From: a virus
Virus record (IMG/VR): IMGVR_UViG_3300020470_000050
Coordinates: 1-40,446 of that record
Direction: 5' to 3' (one strand)
DNA length: 40,446 bases
The translations under genes and the position numbers were made by a program. How positions within the stretch are numbered: position 1 is the stretch's first letter; each line of letters opens with the position of its first letter. Below, in pieces: positions 2,657-40,446 of the stretch. A model generated the notes under the pieces. The model ran no database searches, had not been told where the DNA came from, and worked only from the letters and a program-made list of their open reading frames with translations.

Positions 2657-2937
2657 AGAGGATTCTGTGGGAACACTTGAAAATCGCTCACAGGAAAATC
2701 CAAGTGCTCCCACACATGAGAATTAGAAGCGACATCTAAAGCATGGTCAGGAGTTTCAGCTACAACAACCGTCTGGAATCCATGATCAGTAACAGAACCA
2801 TACCCAACAAAAGCAGAAGGGATACGCACCACCCATCCTCTAGGTCTGTATTTAGTGATTTCCGTGAGTTTTGATCCATCCTGTTTTTGCTTCTTGTCTT
2901 TGGATTTTTTCGATTGGGACACCAAGAATTTGTGCAT
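2653..2937 (-). CDS. Hypothetical protein overlapping the terminase 3' end
   Basis: 94 residues from ATG at 2935-2937 (MHKFLVSQSKKSKDKKQ...). The open frame extends to 3024 but that part lies deep in the terminase gene; the ATG chosen has a purine-rich GAGGG about ten bases upstream. It overlaps the last 86 bases of the large terminase gene in another frame. A Lys-rich N-terminus is followed by a compact mixed domain (RGWVVRIPSAFVGYG, FQTVVVAETPDHALDVA). The part downstream of the terminase stop supports a true gene because it fills the gap and keeps a protein-like composition. I do not recognise the family. Confidence 0.7.
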   Translation of the reverse strand: MHKFLVSQSKKSKDKKQKQDGSKLTEITKYRPRGWVVRIPSAFVGYGSVTDHGFQTVVVAETPDHALDVASNSHVWEHLDFPVSDFQVFPQNPL

Positions 2938-4585
2938 CGAGAATGCCCTCAATATCACCCTTATACGCTGCCAATTCCAGTTCCCAGAGTTCTTGTTCAC
3001 GTTCCTTAATAGCTCTATCTTCATCTATAGCAAGAGACTCGTTCCAATATTGAACTGCACCAGCTAAAGAGTCTAATCTGTCATCATGTTGTAAAGATTG
3101 TTTATCGACAGTGAGATGAGTTAATTGATGAAACAACTGGTATGCCAAAGCTGTCTCTACGGAATCATCATCTCTAGCTTTGGAATCATCTTCAATTACC
3201 GAGCGATTAAAGATCAATCGATGTTGATTCATCACTGGTTCAAGAGCATTAATAATTCTTCTCTCCTTCTGGACGTTGCTCCTGGTCGCTTCAATCGTGC
3301 AGGGGTAAACCTCTCTGAGGTAAGGCTGTAATAGATTTTCCATCATGCCTTGACCAAACTGATCTTCTAAGAGAATCAGTTTTACTTTTCTACGTTTAGC
3401 TGCTTCTGCAATTCCTCTTAAGACAGGCTCGGTATAACCTTCACGGAAGGAACCCACTTCCAATACAAATAAATTTCCATTGAGATGAGCGACAATAGAA
3501 TAAGCAGTTTCATCTAAACCCTTACCTGAAGGATCTATAAACATTACACAACCTTGGAACTCAATCCACTGTCCATGTATAAACGCTGGCCTGTGATAAT
3601 AATCTCCACTAAACCCAACAGCAGGCAGGTCAGTAATCCGATACTCAGCACCAGAAGACCACACCACTTTCTCAGGTGCGTCTTGGTCAACTTCTAAAAC
3701 TACTAAGTCAGATAATCTAAGAGGGAAACGATTTAGATCACTGAGTGTCGTATCTAGTTGAAACTGAAGAGTGAATTGTGACTTACCGTAACTAGCTTCT
3801 CTTTCAATTAGATCTAGTTCATTAAAGCGATCAGGGTCAGTTGGTTTATTAACAAGTTCGACACAATTCTCTAGTATCATTGGTGCTAGAGATGCACCGT
3901 ATTTTTGTGGTTTCTTTGGATACCTTGAAGGCCAAACACGACATTCATATCCTTTTGTTTGCAATTTGTTGTATATACTTTCTTCCGTCTGAGGCGTACC
4001 CAGGAACATAATTTCTCCACCTGGTTTCAAGATCGCATTAAATTCTCCGACAGATACAATTAATTTCTCTCTCATTCCTACAGTCCACGCTGTATTAGGA
4101 ACCTCACAGTCATCTGCAAGTATTAAATCTGCTCTACTACCAGTAAGCTGTCCAAAAATACCGACAGATTTTACTGATGGGGATTGATCTGGTGTCGCTG
4201 GTCTTACATCAAATCTATTACTCGCACTTCTTTGCTCATCCCTATCTGGTTCTAAGCACTTCAATATATCCATCTCTCTAATCAACCTGAGACAGAACTG
4301 TGCAAAGTCATCTGCTCGCATCTTGCTTGCAGATACAACCATGATCTTCTTCTGTGGATCATTCCTTAACAGCCACAGCACATAAGCTGCTGCCATCCAA
4401 CTCTTTCCTACTCCACGAAAAGCCTCAATAATTCTTCTCTTTGGCCCATCCTGCATATATTCAGCTATATCTAACTGAACAGGAGTCGGATTAGGAAGTT
4501 GAAGGTGCTTCCATACGACAACTAAAAAATATCTAAAATCCTCTCTGAACTGATCAGGTAACGGCTGCCATCGTTCCTTTCCCAT
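2852..4585 (-). CDS. terL: Terminase large subunit (T7 gp19-type DNA maturase B)
   Basis: 577 residues, close to the 586 of T7 gp19. It is the ATP-driven packaging motor and nuclease that docks on the portal. The Walker A-type loop AFRGVGKS is at residues 55-62, in the same FRGxGKS form as T7. The Walker B LILADD is at 154-159. The C-terminal RNase H-like nuclease shows FIDPSGKG with Asp351, LLEDQ with Glu407/Asp408, and HDDRLDS with Asp501, Asp502 and Asp505. The ATG follows directly after the TAG of the 19-codon micro-ORF, so translation is probably coupled. Unusual for a T7-like phage, it is on the strand opposite to the virion genes. Confidence 0.97.
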   Translation of the reverse strand: MGKERWQPLPDQFREDFRYFLVVVWKHLQLPNPTPVQLDIAEYMQDGPKRRIIEAFRGVGKSWMAAAYVLWLLRNDPQKKIMVVSASKMRADDFAQFCLRLIREMDILKCLEPDRDEQRSASNRFDVRPATPDQSPSVKSVGIFGQLTGSRADLILADDCEVPNTAWTVGMREKLIVSVGEFNAILKPGGEIMFLGTPQTEESIYNKLQTKGYECRVWPSRYPKKPQKYGASLAPMILENCVELVNKPTDPDRFNELDLIEREASYGKSQFTLQFQLDTTLSDLNRFPLRLSDLVVLEVDQDAPEKVVWSSGAEYRITDLPAVGFSGDYYHRPAFIHGQWIEFQGCVMFIDPSGKGLDETAYSIVAHLNGNLFVLEVGSFREGYTEPVLRGIAEAAKRRKVKLILLEDQFGQGMMENLLQPYLREVYPCTIEATRSNVQKERRIINALEPVMNQHRLIFNRSVIEDDSKARDDDSVETALAYQLFHQLTHLTVDKQSLQHDDRLDSLAGAVQYWNESLAIDEDRAIKEREQELWELELAAYKGDIEGILDAQILGVPIEKIQRQEAKTGWIKTHGNH

Positions 4586-5267: not shown

Positions 5268-5369
5268 AAGGCTATCAGGTCGATTTGTAAGCAGTTCTTG
5301 GAGTTGATCTGTCTTTTAGTTTGTAACCGCAATGACTAACTAGGCTATTCAAAAAGAATGCAGATCCTA

Positions 5370-5398
5370 TTGACATCTGATTCATTTCTGATTAATAT
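5370..5398 (+). promoter_or_regulatory. Sigma70-type early promoter
   Basis: A perfect -35 box TTGACA (5370-5375), 17-bp spacer and -10 box TAATAT (5393-5398). Transcription would start near 5405 and give a leader of about 22 bases before the ATG at 5427. This fits host RNA polymerase transcribing the early genes, as in T7. It also argues against the longer reading of the first gene from 5358, which would overlap the promoter. Confidence 0.75.
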
Positions 5399-5426
5399 GA
5401 TTAACGAACCCACCACAATTAGGTTT

Positions 5427-5861
5427 ATGTCTACTCGTTCACGGATCGGAATCCTTAACCAAGATGAATCCATTGAGTCTGTATATCATCACTCGGATGG
5501 ATACCCAGAATGGCTAGGAGTCTTTCTAAAGAGGAACTATTCAGACACTTCTAAGGTGAGGGAACTAATGGAGTTAGGCGACATCTCATGTATCCATTCA
5601 AAGACAGATTGGGACATGAAAGAAGTTGAAGAACCAATCATTAGAACTTTCAATCAAAGAGGTGAGAAGACAATGGCTCAAGAACATGCAGATCTAAATG
5701 ACTACATTTTCTATGATCCAATTCAGATTGAATATTCTTATCTTTGGAACACTGATCTAAAAGAATGGAAGTGCTACAAGGCAGAGTTCGATTACGACTG
5801 GAACATTCCAAAGGCTCCAACAGTAGTTGATATTCCTAAGACTTCCAGATTCTTTGACTAA
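5427..5861 (+). CDS. Conserved phage early protein (MSTRSRIG family), function unknown
   Basis: 144 residues. The start at 5427 (MSTRSRIGILNQD) was chosen over upstream starts at 5358 and 5397 because the promoter boxes lie there, AGG precedes the ATG, and the MSTRSxIG start is what I recall for this family in many phages. The sequence has ESVYHHSDGYPEWLGVFL near the start, followed by an aromatic, acidic C-terminal half (YDPIQIEYSYLWNTDLKEW). No catalytic motif is evident. It is the first gene of the plus-strand arm, so probably expressed first, and may act on the host. Confidence 0.85.
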   Translation: MSTRSRIGILNQDESIESVYHHSDGYPEWLGVFLKRNYSDTSKVRELMELGDISCIHSKTDWDMKEVEEPIIRTFNQRGEKTMAQEHADLNDYIFYDPIQIEYSYLWNTDLKEWKCYKAEFDYDWNIPKAPTVVDIPKTSRFFD

Positions 5862-5876
5862 TTCGTTTAAGCGAGC

Positions 5877-5930
5877 GACCAGGTGCAAACCCTGGTCTAG
5901 TCATTCCCTCAACTGAGGGAAGCCCACCAC
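5877..5930 (+). promoter_or_regulatory. Early leader A: two hairpins plus CCCACCAC box
   Basis: Hairpin 1 is GACCAGG (5877-5883) with CCTGGTC (5891-5897), loop of 7. Hairpin 2 is TTCCCTC (5904-5910) with GAGGGAA (5915-5921), loop AACT. The box CCCACCAC (5923-5930) follows, then AGAGG and the ATG at 5942. It is the first of three leaders with the same plan (others at 6286 and 6639). GACTA (5856-5860) can also pair with TAGTC (5898-5902). Confidence 0.65.
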
Positions 5931-5941
5931 AAAGAGGTTTT

Positions 5942-6148
5942 ATGACCACTTACAAGATTGTTCGTTACTACAAAGACCGTCCAACATGGGAGCCTGTAGA
6001 CCGTAGAGGATACGGAGGCTTAACACTTGAGCAAGCACAAAAGCATTGCTCGCATGATGAAACAAGTTCTTCAACTTGTATTACTCCAGCCAACAGGCAA
6101 CACACTGCTATTCATGGGCCTTGGTTTGACGGTTACACAGAAGAATGA
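5942..6148 (+). CDS. Small conserved phage protein (early)
   Basis: 68 residues, ATG with AGAGG five to nine bases upstream. MTTYKIVRYYKDRPTW starts a short basic domain; the GLTLEQAQKHCSHDETSS segment and the WFDGYTEE end are features I recall from many small phage and prophage proteins of unknown function. The TGA overlaps the next gene's ATG by 4 nt (ATGA). It is preceded by a two-hairpin leader. Confidence 0.85.
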   Translation: MTTYKIVRYYKDRPTWEPVDRRGYGGLTLEQAQKHCSHDETSSSTCITPANRQHTAIHGPWFDGYTEE

Positions 6149-6276
6149 TGGACAATTATTGCAATTACATAGAGCTAGGCTACACCATGCTAAACGAGCT
6201 ATCTCGAATAGGTGGAGAGGATTACTACGACTCTATTGCATATCTTGAAGACTTTGAATTTCTTAATCCTCAATGA
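6145..6276 (+). CDS. Small acidic early protein (43 residues)
   Basis: ATG at 6145 overlaps the upstream TGA (ATGA), the usual sign of coupled translation, and a second ATG follows at once. The peptide begins MMDNYCNYIELGYTMLNEL and ends DYYDSIAYLEDFEFLNPQ: acidic and aromatic, composition like its neighbours. It is too short for usual gene-length cut-offs but fills the space up to the next leader exactly. Unknown function; acidic small early proteins often inhibit or mimic DNA-binding partners, which is only a possibility here. Confidence 0.75.
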   Translation: MMDNYCNYIELGYTMLNELSRIGGEDYYDSIAYLEDFEFLNPQ

Positions 6277-6285
6277 TTCTCTCTC

Positions 6286-6333
6286 TCTGTCCTACGGGAC
6301 AGACTGAGGGACTCACCCTCAACAAATCCCACC
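6286..6333 (+). promoter_or_regulatory. Early leader B: two hairpins plus CCCACC box
   Basis: Hairpin 1 is TCTGTCC (6286-6292), loop TACG, GGACAGA (6297-6303). Hairpin 2 is TGAGGG (6305-6310), loop ACTCA, CCCTCA (6316-6321). CCCACC is at 6328-6333, 12 bases before ATG 6345. Nearly all of the second hairpin and flanks recur in leader C. Confidence 0.75.
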
Positions 6334-6344
6334 GCTTTATTTCT

Positions 6345-6629
6345 ATGAATTGGTTCGATGGTAGAGATAGCACTAGGCAATTACCTAGCGAGTGCATTGC
6401 AGATTGTTCTGGTAGTGGTGACGCTACTGAAAATGTAGAGTTCTGGGTTAAACATCTTAATTTCGATGGGCCTAAAGATTTATTCAAAGAACATCTACAA
6501 GAATATGGAGCATGGACTGACGAGCAATTAGAAGACCATGAAGAAAACAAGCTCAGAGTTTTATGGACATGGGCTTGTGATTGTTCGGAACAACCTGGTG
6601 ACTATGACTATCTTCACTTAGGAATTTGA
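6345..6629 (+). CDS. Small acidic early protein, unknown
   Basis: 94 residues from ATG 6345 (MNWFDGRDSTRQLPSECIAD). The frame is open from 6273, but that stretch is the hairpin leader, and the third leader likewise ends just before its gene, so the later start is preferred. The protein is acidic, with cysteines (ECIADCSGSG, WACDCSEQ) and many Trp and Asp residues (WVKHLNFDGPKDLFKEHLQE). The DCSGSGD and CDCSE cysteines might bind metal, but the spacing matches no motif I know. No known family. Confidence 0.75.
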   Translation: MNWFDGRDSTRQLPSECIADCSGSGDATENVEFWVKHLNFDGPKDLFKEHLQEYGAWTDEQLEDHEENKLRVLWTWACDCSEQPGDYDYLHLGI

Positions 6630-6638
6630 TTCTCTCTC

Positions 6639-6689
6639 TCTGCCCTAACTATTGGGCAGACTGAGGGACTCACCCTCACAAATCCCACC
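6639..6689 (+). promoter_or_regulatory. Early leader C: two hairpins plus CCCACC box
   Basis: Hairpin 1 is TCTGCCC (6639-6645), loop of 8, GGGCAGA (6654-6660). Hairpin 2 is TGAGGG (6662-6667), loop ACTCA, CCCTCA (6673-6678), followed by CCCACC (6684-6689). Compared with leader B, one T-A pair of hairpin 1 has become C-G on both sides, a compensatory change, while the loop differs in length. It starts ten bases after the upstream stop. Confidence 0.75.
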
Positions 6690-6705: not shown

Positions 6706-6849
6706 GTGGCTAGAACTACTATTGCGACACTGACTGAAGACAAAGAAAGACTTCAAGCTCAGGTAGCAGAGTTAACACCAGCAAAAGAACAGCTAGACAG
6801 TCTATGGATTGTGCTTGCTGTCGTATTCACACTCGGAGTTCTTTTCTAA
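6706..6849 (+). CDS. Small tail-anchored membrane protein
   Basis: 47 residues from GTG 6706. Residues 1-29 look like a coiled coil (TLTEDKERLQAQVAELT), and the C-terminus is one membrane segment (LWIVLAVVFTLGVLF). An upstream TTG at 6652 falls inside the leader hairpin, so the GTG after the CCCACC box is preferred. The stop overlaps the next ATG (TAATG). A small early membrane protein may act at the host envelope; nothing more can be said. Confidence 0.7.
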   Translation: MARTTIATLTEDKERLQAQVAELTPAKEQLDSLWIVLAVVFTLGVLF

Positions 6850-7031: not shown

Positions 7032-7188
7032 GCAGGCTATCGGGACAGCGTTAGGTTTAAGTATCTACGCTGTCCTTTTTTTATTGCTGGCTAACAGTCC
7101 AGCAGTACAAGAACCATCACGAGGTAACGAATGGGGCCAACTGAATCAACCAAGAAGATCACATGCACTGATGGTGAGTGCAAAGTGA
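7024..7188 (+). CDS. Possible small membrane protein overlapping a terminator
   Basis: A 54-residue frame from ATG 7024, overlapping the previous stop by eight bases. Residues 5-27 form a clean membrane segment (AIGTALGLSIYAVLFLLLAN), followed by a polar tail. The terminator at 7043-7082 lies wholly inside its coding sequence, and its last 58 bases overlap the zinc-ribbon gene at 7131. Either this is a real overlapping gene, or the hairpin and T-run chance to encode hydrophobic residues. Confidence 0.4.
   Translation: MIRQAIGTALGLSIYAVLFLLLANSPAVQEPSRGNEWGQLNQPRRSHALMVSAK
7043..7082 (+). terminator. Rho-independent terminator after the first early genes
   Basis: A perfect 9-bp stem GGACAGCGT (7043-7051) with ACGCTGTCC (7067-7075), a 15-nt loop and seven T's (7076-7082). 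It lies upstream of the remaining early genes and the RNA polymerase, so it would have to be leaky or anti-terminated for host polymerase to reach them. Confidence 0.8.
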
Positions 7189-7382
7189 CTGAATACTTTG
7201 AACCAATGAGGAAGTATTCACGGACTGGCTTCGATGGCAAGCTAGTCAAGTGCCCTCATTGCGAGGCAACTCATCGGGTCTATCACCTGAGAGATAAGAC
7301 AATGACTTGCCCAACGTGCAAGACATCCAGTGATAAGTATCAGTGGATGATTGAGCGTGAAGTTATTTATTCCAGCTACTAA
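7131..7382 (+). CDS. Small zinc-ribbon protein
   Basis: 83 residues. ATG at 7131 has GAGG with ideal spacing. CPHC and CPTC pairs (about residues 42-45 and 62-65) form a four-cysteine zinc ribbon; two further cysteines near the N-terminus (TCTDGEC) may not be structural. Such ribbons usually bind nucleic acid or polymerase, so a transcription-modulating role after the terminator is possible but unproven. Confidence 0.8.
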   Translation: MGPTESTKKITCTDGECKVTEYFEPMRKYSRTGFDGKLVKCPHCEATHRVYHLRDKTMTCPTCKTSSDKYQWMIEREVIYSSY

Positions 7383-7466
7383 CTACCGAGGGATAACAGT
7401 GCGGAGTCTCAGTTGAGCAGGCGTGTCAACCCTCGACCAACCCAAATGTTTTTCTATTGCAATCCA

Positions 7467-7748: not shown

Positions 7749-7956
7749 TGATGTGATTGGTATCCAAACTAGGACTACCATTCAAAACTCTGCCCTTCTC
7801 ACTCATCTGAGTGAGCTTAAGGGTATGAGTATGTCAGGTGTATGTCGTTACGTCCTCGAAGACTGGCTTGATAAGCACTACGAGGAACAACGCATTGCTT
7901 TGGAAGCAAAGCAAGCAGCTAATAGAGAACTGCTTGAGAGGTTACGTGGAAAATGA
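7732..7956 (+). CDS. Possible ribbon-helix-helix regulator 2
   Basis: 74 residues. GIQTRTTIQNSALLTHLSEL and SMSGVCRYVLEDWLDKHYEE read as the strand, first helix and second helix of a CopG-like RHH, followed by a charged helix (EQRIALEAKQAANRELLERL). It lies directly before the RNA polymerase gene and overlaps the preceding gene, so the two small proteins may pair or regulate the same sites, perhaps the inverted repeats at 5182-5267. Inference only. Confidence 0.65.
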   Translation: MTTPINDVIGIQTRTTIQNSALLTHLSELKGMSMSGVCRYVLEDWLDKHYEEQRIALEAKQAANRELLERLRGK

Positions 7957-7978
7957 TGTACTGATTTTTGAAAGTAAG

Positions 7979-10312
7979 ATGATCTCTAATAGCGTGGATA
8001 ACTCACGCTATGTAGAGAATCAACTACAAACTAAGAAGATCCAGTCTCGCTCCAGATGGGGTGAGACTTTATCTTCTAAGGGATATGGACTTATCAAAGA
8101 TCACATTGAATACATAAAGAAAGAGTCTGAGTCTGGACGTGCTGGCGTTGCTTGGTCAAGACTCAAACCTTTACGGACTCTTCCCACTGAAACGATAGCA
8201 GCTACAGCTATTCGGACAATCATTGATACTCTTACTCTCAACCCTACCTTTCATACTGTCGGACAAGAGATAGCAGACAGGCTATGGATTGAGGCCATGC
8301 TTGAGAGATTAAACAAGGATGAGTTAGCCAGATACAACAGGAGCAGACAGCGTAAACGACATAAGATCAAAGGCTTGCAACACATGACAAACACTGTCCA
8401 ATGGACAGCCAAGGAACGCATGGCAATAGGTGGGCTGCTTATCTATATCGTTGAGAAAGAGACAGGGTTTATCAAGGTAGAAAGAGATGACCTGCCACAT
8501 AAGAAACGTAGGATTATTAAGCCAACTGCTGAGTGCATGAAGTGGATCGAAGAAGTTAAAGACAAGCAAGGCTTACTAATCCCTCACTATCTACCAACCA
8601 TTGCACCAGGTGTACCGTTTAACTCTGACCTGATCGGTGGATACCATGACCCACGCTTACAGATACCCTTAGTTAAATCGAACAACGAAGTAGTAGCTCA
8701 GCACTTGAAAGGTGATGAGCCATGCAAGAAAGCACCAGAAATATTTAGTGATGTTGGTTGGACTATCAATGAGTGGATACTAGAGCAGGCTATTAGTGCA
8801 AGAGATAATGGCTGGTCTATTGGTGTAGTGCAACAAGAGCCAGTGATACCGCCTTACCCTAAAGGTAAAGATGATGACAGCCCTGAAGTATTAGCGTGGA
8901 GAAAGACAGCTAAGAAGCAGCACATACTAGAAGAAAAGACAAGGAACTCACGCATTGGACTGGCTTGGTTACTACATATAGCTAGTGAATTAAAAGAACA
9001 AGATGAACTGTTCATGCCCTGCCAACTGGACAGTCGAGGAAGGATTTATTACAGGCCACCATACCTAAACCCACAAGGCAATGATCTAAGTCGGGCACTC
9101 TTACAGTTCTCTTACTACAACTACATGCAGACAGATGAGCATGTGAACTGGTTGCGTGTGCATGGTGCAAATGTATATGGACTAGGCAAGTCGGATTGGC
9201 AGACAAGAATTGATTGGGTTACTGAGCATGAGCAACTCATCCTTGCAGCAGGCAATGACCCTTGGTTAAGCCCTAACTTCTGGACTAGAGCAGAGAAACC
9301 GTGGAGTTTCTTAGCTTTTTGTCGTACCTATTACGAGTGGAAACAAGAGGGGCCAACCTATAAGTGCAGGCATCCCATCATCATGGACTGCACCTGTTCA
9401 GGTGTGCAGAATTTCGCTGGCTTACTCAGGTCACAAGAGATGGCAGAGCAGGTGAACCTTACGCAATCCGACAAACCACAAGATATATATGCAGCAGTCG
9501 TTGGCAAAATAAATGAAAGGCTAAGGGTATATAAGTGTAGCGACAGTAAGAAATGGTTGATGCTACAACCTGATCGCAGTCTTACCAAGGCAGCAGTGAT
9601 GACTATCCCATACGCTGCTACATACACAGCCTTCTATAAGTATGCGTATCAGTGGGCAATACAAAGAGCTAAAGATTTATATGGCAATAGCTGTTGGCTA
9701 AACAAACCTGGATCAATGAGTACCGTTCACTTCATGGCACGCATACTGCATGAAGAGTCAGCACGAATGATACAACCAGCAGTGCAGGCAATGAAATGGT
9801 TTAAGTCTGTCGGTACTAAAGCTGGTAAGTGTAACGTACCTTTACGATGGACAACACCATCAGGATTATTAGTACATCAGCAATACAATAGTACGAAAGA
9901 TAACAGGGTTAGACTTAAGTATTTGTCGGACATTTACTTAGACATTAGGGTACAAGAAGACTGTCCTACACTGAATACTATTAAGATGGGTAACAGTTTA
10001 ACTGCAAACATACTGCACTCATTTGATTCTTCTTTAATGTCATTATGTACATTGAAATCACGAGGTAAAAATGTTATAAATATAGGTGGGATACATGATG
10101 CTTTCATCACTGACCCAACCTCAATGAGTGTCGTTAGAGATGCAGCTAAAGAATCTTTCGTTGAGATATACAAAGATGACTGGCTAACCAAGATCAAAGA
10201 CACACTCAAGGCACAACTGCCTGTCGAAACACAAGTGGATCTACCTTCTGAACCACAGCTAGGTAACTTCGATCCAACCTCAACTCTGAACTCAAACTAT
10301 TTCATTACTTAA
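7979..10312 (+). CDS. T7-like single-subunit RNA polymerase
   Basis: 777 residues from ATG 7979 (T7: 883). The frame is open upstream to 7838 but that part overlaps the preceding gene; ATG 7979 follows a 22-base gap. Motif A holds the catalytic Asp470 in MDCTCSGVQNFA (T7 Asp537). Lys537 and Tyr545 in TKAAVMTIPYAATY match T7 Lys631 and Tyr639 with the same spacing of eight. Asp707 in IHDAF matches T7 Asp812. The DSRGRIYY and NPQGNDLSRALL motifs are also present. It is about 100 residues shorter, mostly N-terminal and between motifs A and B. The enzyme would transcribe middle and late genes; its promoter is not identified. Confidence 0.97.
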   Translation: MISNSVDNSRYVENQLQTKKIQSRSRWGETLSSKGYGLIKDHIEYIKKESESGRAGVAWSRLKPLRTLPTETIAATAIRTIIDTLTLNPTFHTVGQEIADRLWIEAMLERLNKDELARYNRSRQRKRHKIKGLQHMTNTVQWTAKERMAIGGLLIYIVEKETGFIKVERDDLPHKKRRIIKPTAECMKWIEEVKDKQGLLIPHYLPTIAPGVPFNSDLIGGYHDPRLQIPLVKSNNEVVAQHLKGDEPCKKAPEIFSDVGWTINEWILEQAISARDNGWSIGVVQQEPVIPPYPKGKDDDSPEVLAWRKTAKKQHILEEKTRNSRIGLAWLLHIASELKEQDELFMPCQLDSRGRIYYRPPYLNPQGNDLSRALLQFSYYNYMQTDEHVNWLRVHGANVYGLGKSDWQTRIDWVTEHEQLILAAGNDPWLSPNFWTRAEKPWSFLAFCRTYYEWKQEGPTYKCRHPIIMDCTCSGVQNFAGLLRSQEMAEQVNLTQSDKPQDIYAAVVGKINERLRVYKCSDSKKWLMLQPDRSLTKAAVMTIPYAATYTAFYKYAYQWAIQRAKDLYGNSCWLNKPGSMSTVHFMARILHEESARMIQPAVQAMKWFKSVGTKAGKCNVPLRWTTPSGLLVHQQYNSTKDNRVRLKYLSDIYLDIRVQEDCPTLNTIKMGNSLTANILHSFDSSLMSLCTLKSRGKNVINIGGIHDAFITDPTSMSVVRDAAKESFVEIYKDDWLTKIKDTLKAQLPVETQVDLPSEPQLGNFDPTSTLNSNYFIT

Positions 10313-39676: not shown

Positions 39677-40446
39677 TTGGATGAAATACCAGATATTAAA
39701 GTCGATAATATTTTTATCCCTAGTAATTTTATCGACAGAGTTTCTACGAACATTCCCAATGTTCAACCCATAACTCTTACATTAGAGCAGCCTAATTTAA
39801 TATTTGAAATCCCTGGTTGCGTTGAAGCACATCCAGATTCAGGCAGCAATAAAAAGTTAAAAACAGATGACGACAGAGGAGTTCAGGTGTACTGTGACGC
39901 AGGGATGCCCTCATATAATCCTGTCGATTACAGGCCAGAGGATATAGAGCCAACTCCCAAAGCCACCACACCAAAAATTAATCCTGCTAAACAAGAAGAA
40001 AAGAAAGAACAATCCACTTCAACGACAGACAACAATAACCCGCCACCAAAAAATCCTTTAGTTCCTAAAATCCTGCCTTGCCCTAGACCTGACGATTTAC
40101 CTGTAGGAGCAATCGGGAAATACGGAACAAAAATAATTCGGGGGTATGAACGAGATGGAAATCAATGCAAAGTCCTATACGAGGAAAGAGGTGTACTGGA
40201 GGTTGTTAACACTTACACTCCACCACCAACGACATTACTTAATACAAGTGCGATAGCTGTTACTTCAGTTATCGGTGTAACTGTATTGGGTCAACCAATA
40301 GCAAAGATGCTCCAGAAGCAAATGAAGGGGCAAGTCAAAAAGATTTCTAAGAAAATCACAAAGAAACTTCTTGCTATTCGGGGGAAGAAACCGAAGGTGT
40401 TGTCACTTCGTGAACGCCAAGCGGAGCAGAGGGGTCTGAAGAAATA
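39677..40446 (+). CDS. Terminal membrane protein with basic tail (cut at the window end; completes at 411)
   Basis: Frame open from TTG 39677, three bases after the upstream stop, to the last base; with bases 1-411 (only the final G is new) the stop is TAG, giving about 256 residues. N-terminal part acidic (DEIPDIKVDNIFIPSNFIDR), a GCVEAHPDSG and VYCDAGMP cysteine-containing region, a Pro/Lys/Thr linker, a second domain with PCPRPDDL and YERDGNQCK, one hydrophobic segment and a basic tail. It resembles a protein of T4-like cyanophages. An ATG at 39681 opens only 30 codons in another frame, so the TTG start is accepted. Confidence 0.8.
   Translation, partial: MDEIPDIKVDNIFIPSNFIDRVSTNIPNVQPITLTLEQPNLIFEIPGCVEAHPDSGSNKKLKTDDDRGVQVYCDAGMPSYNPVDYRPEDIEPTPKATTPKINPAKQEEKKEQSTSTTDNNNPPPKNPLVPKILPCPRPDDLPVGAIGKYGTKIIRGYERDGNQCKVLYEERGVLEVVNTYTPPPTTLLNTSAIAVTSVIGVTVLGQPIAKMLQKQMKGQVKKISKKITKKLLAIRGKKPKVLSLRERQAEQRGLKK
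40037..40446. repeat. Imperfect terminal direct repeat, right copy
   Basis: Second copy of bases 1-410 (about 96 percent identical). The zone equivalent to 338-410, coding on both strands, has no difference. See the left copy. Confidence 0.95.

Follow-up and report, generated by a model that had tools for sequence, protein, structure and literature searches.

Two covarying RNA leader families between cyanophage early genes, one with a predicted tRNA-like fold

Why would the short gaps between the small early genes of a phage carry repeated hairpins just ahead of the start codons? The window studied here (the whole stretch of DNA analysed, a virus record of 40,446 bases) encodes an RNA polymerase of 824 residues that is 49% identical to the one from the Prochlorococcus phage P-SCSP1u, a T7-like podovirus. 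Three leaders, A, B, and C, lie between a predicted sigma-70-like promoter and the RNA polymerase gene, among small and mostly unassigned genes. Only three of the ten proteins of this block match a PHROG family, being those encoded at 5358-5861 and 7131-7382 and the RNA polymerase itself, and a nucleotide BLAST of the whole region for phage relatives gave no match in 50,697 records. Also, positions 1-300 and 40037-40336 of the window are 97% identical, and these ends are probably the terminal repeat of the phage genome.

Two kinds of leader in the early gene block

The original prediction described the three leaders as sharing one plan, that is, a variable hairpin, a second hairpin built on GAGGG/CCCTC, and a CCCACC box before the start codon. 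Stable hairpins are found at all three leaders, with none of 200 shuffles being as stable (z scores in Table 1), and a CCCACC box lies 3' of each one (5923, 6328, and 6684). A plan common to the three is not supported, the leaders belonging to two unrelated families: B and C form one (type I), whereas leader A, with CCCTC and GAGGG in the opposite order, belongs to a tRNA-like leader family (type II). Moreover, the elements begin further 5' than had been proposed, at or inside the stop codons of the upstream genes.

Leaders B and C each correspond to a single imperfect hairpin, UGA.UCUCUC..UCUGYCC-loop-GGRCAGA..GAGGGA.UCA, in which the end pairing UGA/UCA is followed by a 1x1 mismatch, the lower stem UCUCUC/GAGGGA, a 2x2 internal loop, and the upper stem UCUGYCC/GGRCAGA. 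The first three bases of this hairpin are the UGA stop codon of the upstream gene. The first of the two hairpins proposed for B and C is present as the upper stem of the long hairpin, and the second, GAGGG/CCCTC, exists as an alternative fold that competes for the same GAGGG. The change from TCTGTCC/GGACAGA in leader B to TCTGCCC/GGGCAGA in leader C is confirmed in the sequence, although, taken alone, it is weak evidence of covariation because B and C are near-identical copies, and the proof comes from their relatives.

In a pattern scan, the only strong promoter-like site near the leaders is the one at 5370-5398, ahead of the first gene. The CCCACC motif is present in 10 copies on the plus strand of the window, compared with about 3.5 expected from composition, and the positions noted, in addition to those given above, are 4935 and 5409. 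Four copies directly precede early start codons, and one of these four, at 5409, follows right after the predicted promoter, just past the likely start.

Table 1. Positions of the leaders, their structural parts, and neighboring features in the window.
Feature	Position	Strand	Basis
Predicted sigma-70-like promoter, TTGACA-17-TAATAT	5370..5398	+	Pattern scan, 10/12 matches; 5' of first early gene
First early gene, upstream of leader A	5358..5861	+	ORF; PHROG match
Leader A, type II tRNA-like leader	5856..5921	+	R2 match 5856-5925, E=1.1e-11 (R1 and R2 E-values are rough); z=-4.7
Leader A, P1 (acceptor-like)	5856-5860/5898-5902	+	MFE fold
UAA stop of upstream early gene, overlapping leader A P1	5859..5861	+	ORF 5358..5861, sequence
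Leader A, P2	5862-5866/5871-5875	+	MFE fold
Leader A, P3 (T-arm-like), loop UGCAAAC 5884-5890	5877-5883/5891-5897	+	MFE fold
Leader A, discriminator-like base	A5903	+	MFE fold
Leader A, P4 hairpin	5904-5910/5915-5921	+	MFE fold
Small early gene following leader A, 68 aa	5942..6148	+	ORF; without family match
Leader B, type I hairpin	6274..6315	+	R1 64.0 bits (an identical sequence was in the seed); -23.8 kcal/mol for the fold, z=-4.5
Leader B, end pairing UGA/UCA	6274-6276/6313-6315	+	Fold
Leader B, lower stem	6278-6283/6306-6311	+	Fold
Leader B, 2x2 internal loop	6284-6285/6304-6305	+	Fold
Leader B, upper stem	6286-6292/6297-6303	+	Fold
Leader B, alternative hairpin 2, UGAGGG/CCCUCA	6305..6321	+	Excludes lower stem of long hairpin
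Small early gene following leader B, 94 aa from ATG 6345	6345..6629	+	ORF
Leader C, type I hairpin	6627..6672	+	R1 65.6 bits; z=-6.1
Leader C, end pairing UGA/UCA	6627-6629/6670-6672	+	Fold
Leader C, lower stem	6631-6636/6663-6668	+	Fold
Leader C, upper stem	6639-6645/6654-6660	+	Fold
Leader C, alternative hairpin 2	6662..6678	+	Competing fold
Small early gene following leader C, 47 aa, GTG start	6706..6849	+	ORF
Leader D, third, unrelated structured leader before gene at 7446	7387..7435	+	Conserved core in 18 IMG/VR stretches
RNA polymerase	7838..10312

Covariation, folds, and distribution of the two families

When IMG/VR was scanned with a pattern for the type I element, 23 stretches matched, some of them on contigs 50-86 kb long. 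In the isolates 9515-10a, P-SSP6, and P-SSP10, BLAST locates the element in gaps between genes. Because this first pattern itself fixes bases, the conservation of type I is partly imposed by it; for this reason, a covariance model (R1) was built and searched against about 1 Mb of fetched DNA, and its matches, which include divergent copies that the exact pattern would miss, weigh more. The 45 best R1 matches comprise 34 distinct copies from cyanophage-like contigs and from 9515-10a and P-SSP10, these loci, like those of type II, being metagenomic and partly redundant, so that copy counts are not counts of independent events. With the exact pattern, from which divergent copies would escape, no match was obtained in 257 Gb of cellular genome contigs.

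Among the 45 best R1 matches, double changes are observed at 9 of 16 pairs, pairing is kept in 98.6% of cells compared with 89.5% in shuffles, and the covariation is 0.303, against 0.132 for shuffled and at most 0.079 for slid alignments. For example, in one copy (L044, position 5033), UGA/UCA is replaced by UAA/UUA, which preserves both the pairing and the stop codon. The internal loop is variable, from 1x1 to 3x3. Columns 7/59 hold a U.G pair without exception (31/31), and this invariance argues for an RNA rather than a DNA cruciform or palindrome. A cruciform or REP-like element was rejected on this basis and on the model scores, of 20-30 bits on the reverse strand versus mostly 50-70 bits, which favor RNA.

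Both mutually exclusive folds are kept in 32 of the 34 distinct type I copies, which carry a third strand able to replace the upstream strand at GAGGGA; shuffling the downstream sequence gives a mean of 4.4 and a maximum of 11. In divergent copies, this third strand tracks the second one (GAGGGU/ACCCUC; GAAGGG/CCCUUC). The long fold is favored over the alternative by 2.4 kcal/mol on average. In fold computations, cutting off or covering the first strand leaves only the alternative fold, and a hairpin forms at the 5' end of the putative cut product. The upstream stop codon lies exactly at the start of the element in 23 of 34 copies, compared with 0.45% of random positions, and the next start codon is 25-40 nt beyond the element in 32 of 34. 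Readthrough of the stop codon driven by the hairpin was rejected, the downstream frame being open in B and C and closing inside the hairpin in L034 and L035.

The type II family came from inspection of the gaps between genes in 9515-10a, followed by a pattern search with 60 matching stretches in IMG/VR, of which a few are chance matches. A second covariance model (R2), built from seven seeds with the window not among them, gave 123 matches corresponding to 103 distinct copies. The fold common to them starts with a short P1 and with P2, a small hairpin; P3, closed by the 7-base loop UKCRANN, stacks directly onto P1 at its 3' strand, and a discriminator-like base and the P4 hairpin follow. The minimum free energy fold of leader A is exactly this structure, of 5+7 bp, with P4 beginning one base after P1. 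Double changes are present at all 22 pairs, pairing is kept in 95.1% of cells versus 64.8% in shuffles, and the covariation reaches 0.696 compared with 0.171 when shuffled and at most 0.096 when slid. Because the structure had guided this alignment, P1 was also tested outside it: of 98 elements, 53 have complementary 5-mers, compared with 9.5 after swapping strands between elements (maximum of 21 in 500 swaps). The covariation, together with the 27 different T-arm stems and 21 different P1' 5-mers observed, makes a phage attachment site or a tRNA remnant, which would keep a fixed identity to the 3' end of one host tRNA, somewhat less likely.

The sum of P1 and P3 is 11-13 bp in 78 of the 84 parsed copies, with a modest trade-off between both lengths (r=-0.29). 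With a stacked acceptor/T-like arm of about 12 bp and a T-loop of 7 nt, the predicted geometry of type II is that of the acceptor/T arm of a tRNA minus the anticodon arm. Departures from tRNA are the small P2, the missing anticodon arm, and a T-loop that often has G at position 55. A complete cloverleaf is not formed, neither the window nor any of ten related loci containing a tRNA according to ARAGORN, and tRNA genes were rejected as an explanation of the leaders. The discriminator-like A is followed by UU in only 35 of 103 copies as parsed automatically, and the pattern that fetched many of these loci had required ATT. The upstream stop codon is often at the P1/P2 boundary, and the start codon lies about 12-53 nt past the discriminator. 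Also, type II-like elements are found ahead of the major capsid gene in both P-SSP7 and P-SSP2 (L054 20632-20692; L111 27142-27228), and the family is not limited to early genes.

Type II is present in the isolates P-SSP7, P-SSP2, 9515-10a, P-SSP10, NATL2A-133, S-CBP2, and S-SBP1, and also in S-EIV1, an unrelated freshwater phage of 79 kb outside the T7-like family. Of these isolates, 9515-10a and P-SSP10 have both types, whereas P-SSP7 has type II alone. Searches with R1 and R2 found neither family in T7, in the roseophage CRP-125, or in P-SCSP1u, the nearest isolated relative by RNA polymerase. Several copies lie in tandem gene blocks, for example, four within 1.7 kb of an 85.7 kb contig. 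In a PHROG search, the proteins near copies in large contigs are mostly unassigned, and one protein of an 86 kb contig resembles S-EIV1.

The original prediction had assigned the leaders to no named family, and Rfam agrees. At the gathering score, Rfam 15 finds no family in the window and, at E<5, none near its leaders, with two chance matches elsewhere; the leaders of L100, L063, L103, L110, L058, and L053 match no family, and in L061 and L133-L135, nothing but a chance snoRNA appears at E<0.5. Known riboswitches and other Rfam families were thus rejected at the leaders. The same search found Glutamine-II in 9515-10a, which served as a positive control; this riboswitch lies near psbA (L053 35862-35917). 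The literature searched, which includes few subscription papers, shows no description of either family, although one in subscription papers is possible. Both leader families are previously unlisted and absent from Rfam. Moreover, covariation and a conserved position in related phages, whose absence would have spoken against the original prediction, were both found, and the two covariance models, with their many compensatory changes, strongly support its view of an RNA element whose structure is conserved while its sequence changes.

Two other sites were noted. Leader D has a long conserved unpaired core, GAUAACAGUGCGGAGU..CAGGCGUGUCAA, with compensatory changes in its outer stem (CGAGGG/CCCUCG to UGGGGG/CCCCCA in L003) and its inner stem (CUC/GAG to AUC/GAU in L007 and L028), and appears riboswitch-like, without an Rfam entry. 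In P-SSP10 (L051, about 2905-3000), an insertion of about 95 nt relative to 9515-10a lies just 5' of a type I element and carries ACTGAT direct repeats and the inverted ends GTAGGAGT/ACTCCTAC.

Possible division of the early mRNA

In both families, the element folds on the coding strand, starts at the upstream stop codon, ends shortly before the next start codon, and shows compensatory change. The reading favored here, to which about an even chance is given, is that leaders A-C would be cis-acting intercistronic elements at which host nucleases divide the polycistronic early mRNA. Every nuclease assignment and each cutting step is inferred. In type I, RNase III or Mini-III would cut inside the internal loop and remove the UCUCUC strand, so that GAGGGA could pair only with the downstream CCCUC, leaving a new mRNA with hairpin 2 at its 5' end. 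In type II, the leader would mimic the stacked acceptor/T arm of a tRNA, and cutting by tRNase Z after the discriminator-like base would produce a downstream mRNA that starts with P4. Alternatively, RNase P could cut 5' of P1, which is less attractive because this cut would remove the upstream stop codon. Hairpins at the 5' end are a known kind of protection against 5'-end-dependent decay, and in both families, they would shield the phage message in this way. Also, ribosomes finishing the upstream gene would cover the first strand, and cutting may depend on translation.

The original prediction had suggested an RNase III processing site as between T7 early genes. This is plausible for leaders B and C, whereas for leader A, a tRNA-like processing site fits better. 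Like the T7 sites (e.g., R1.1), type I elements are imperfect hairpins with an internal loop between same-strand early genes, within and around the block 5' of the RNA polymerase gene, and the predicted 3'-side cut would be about 10-12 nt from the stem base, as in T7, where R1.1 RNA is cut into pieces of 47 and 13 nt (PMC4858673). However, sequence and loop layout differ, type I has a stop codon in its stem and, unlike the T7 sites, a conserved second fold that can form after a cut, and R1 finds no match in T7 (V01146) up to E=1. Regarding type II, the C4 antisense RNA of P1/P7 (RF01695) and the phage M3 RNA also place a tRNA-like element, recognizable by a tRNA-processing enzyme, in a phage transcript, and RNase P cleaves both of them as well as model hairpins of acceptor plus T arm (PMC11143913). 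Unlike C4 and M3, type II elements occur in arrays, carry a P4 hairpin, and are located at the stop codons that precede many small genes, and they match neither RF01695 nor any other Rfam family. Cyanobacteria possess RNase III, Mini-III, Z, and P, and infection by P-SSP7 raises host RNase E (PMC10989914). More tentatively, at least two unrelated cyanophage families, the T7-like podoviruses and the S-EIV1 group, may place tRNA-mimicking leaders at early stop codons so that host tRNA-maturation enzymes make single hairpin-capped mRNAs, with type I perhaps reaching the same result by cut and refold.

The main rival, possible but rather unlikely, is a translation-coupled switch without cleavage, in which the ribosome at the stop codon would cover UCUCUC or P1, flip the fold, and set downstream initiation or stability. 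The position of the stop codon inside the first strand in most copies would suit such a switch, as would the nearly isoenergetic exclusive folds of type I and a third strand that tracks the second. However, the start codon, 25-40 nt further on, is hidden by neither fold, and a simple switch would not need the tRNA-like shape of type II or its near-constant 12-bp stack.

Gene shuffling and other alternatives

Each leader travels with its downstream gene. In the window, L001, and L024, the gene following leader C is preceded by different genes, and the junction always falls at the leader. L001 lacks the 94-residue gene, and its one leader is a B/C mosaic, such as recombination between the two copies would produce. 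This shuffling resembles that of the PeSLs described for T4-like phages in effect but not in anatomy (PMC4503421). The PeSLs (promoter early stem-loops) of T4-like myoviruses are, like the leaders, small intergenic stem-loop cassettes tied to the shuffling of small early genes, but they consist of an early promoter and a stem-loop terminator, and the leaders show neither a strong promoter-like site nor a U-tract. To our knowledge, the tRNA-like fold has no counterpart among PeSLs. The same observations (one downstream gene joined exactly at the leader to different upstream genes, the mosaic in L001, and the PeSL precedent) could mean that the elements are cassette spacers, kept mainly as homology for swapping small genes. 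This is improbable, as compensatory change erodes identity while it keeps pairing, an outcome not expected if recombination alone were selected for; gene swapping is likely a side effect of the leaders and unlikely to be their sole function.

About equally improbable is that the leaders are regulatory aptamers or protein-binding sites, of the riboswitch or autoregulatory kind. Their location before start codons and their conserved loops (UKCRANN, ACUGA) recall such elements, and manA, wcaG, PhotoRC-II, and Glutamine-II are structured leader RNAs of cyanophages as well (PMC2864571), although these four are all in Rfam and none matches the leaders described here. Against it, the elements precede many unrelated small genes, in several copies per genome, and type I has little conserved unpaired sequence. 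Transcription terminators or attenuators, to which stable hairpins after stop codons might point, are very improbable and were rejected because no U-tract lies 3' of the hairpins; also, the hairpins of B and C are absent from the terminator scan list, and further same-strand genes start within 25-40 nt. Least probable are phage or host promoters, which intergenic repeats do carry in the halovirus HF2 (PMC8707807), the sequence at the leaders being not conserved but varying with the pairing kept and with an invariant G.U pair, and the elements sitting in the early block and not before most late genes.

Finally, the leaders constitute two covarying RNA families outside Rfam in the early, host-takeover block of marine cyanophages, including the model isolate P-SSP7, and one of them, type II, extends to S-EIV1, an unrelated freshwater phage. 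With them, the architecture of phage mRNAs gains a tRNA-like module, and they suggest a reason for the swapping of small early genes as whole units. Moreover, with a stop codon within a conserved fold, a link between translation and the fate of the RNA becomes directly testable, and the leaders offer a testable answer to how these phages would organize their early mRNAs at a time when host RNase E is raised by infection.
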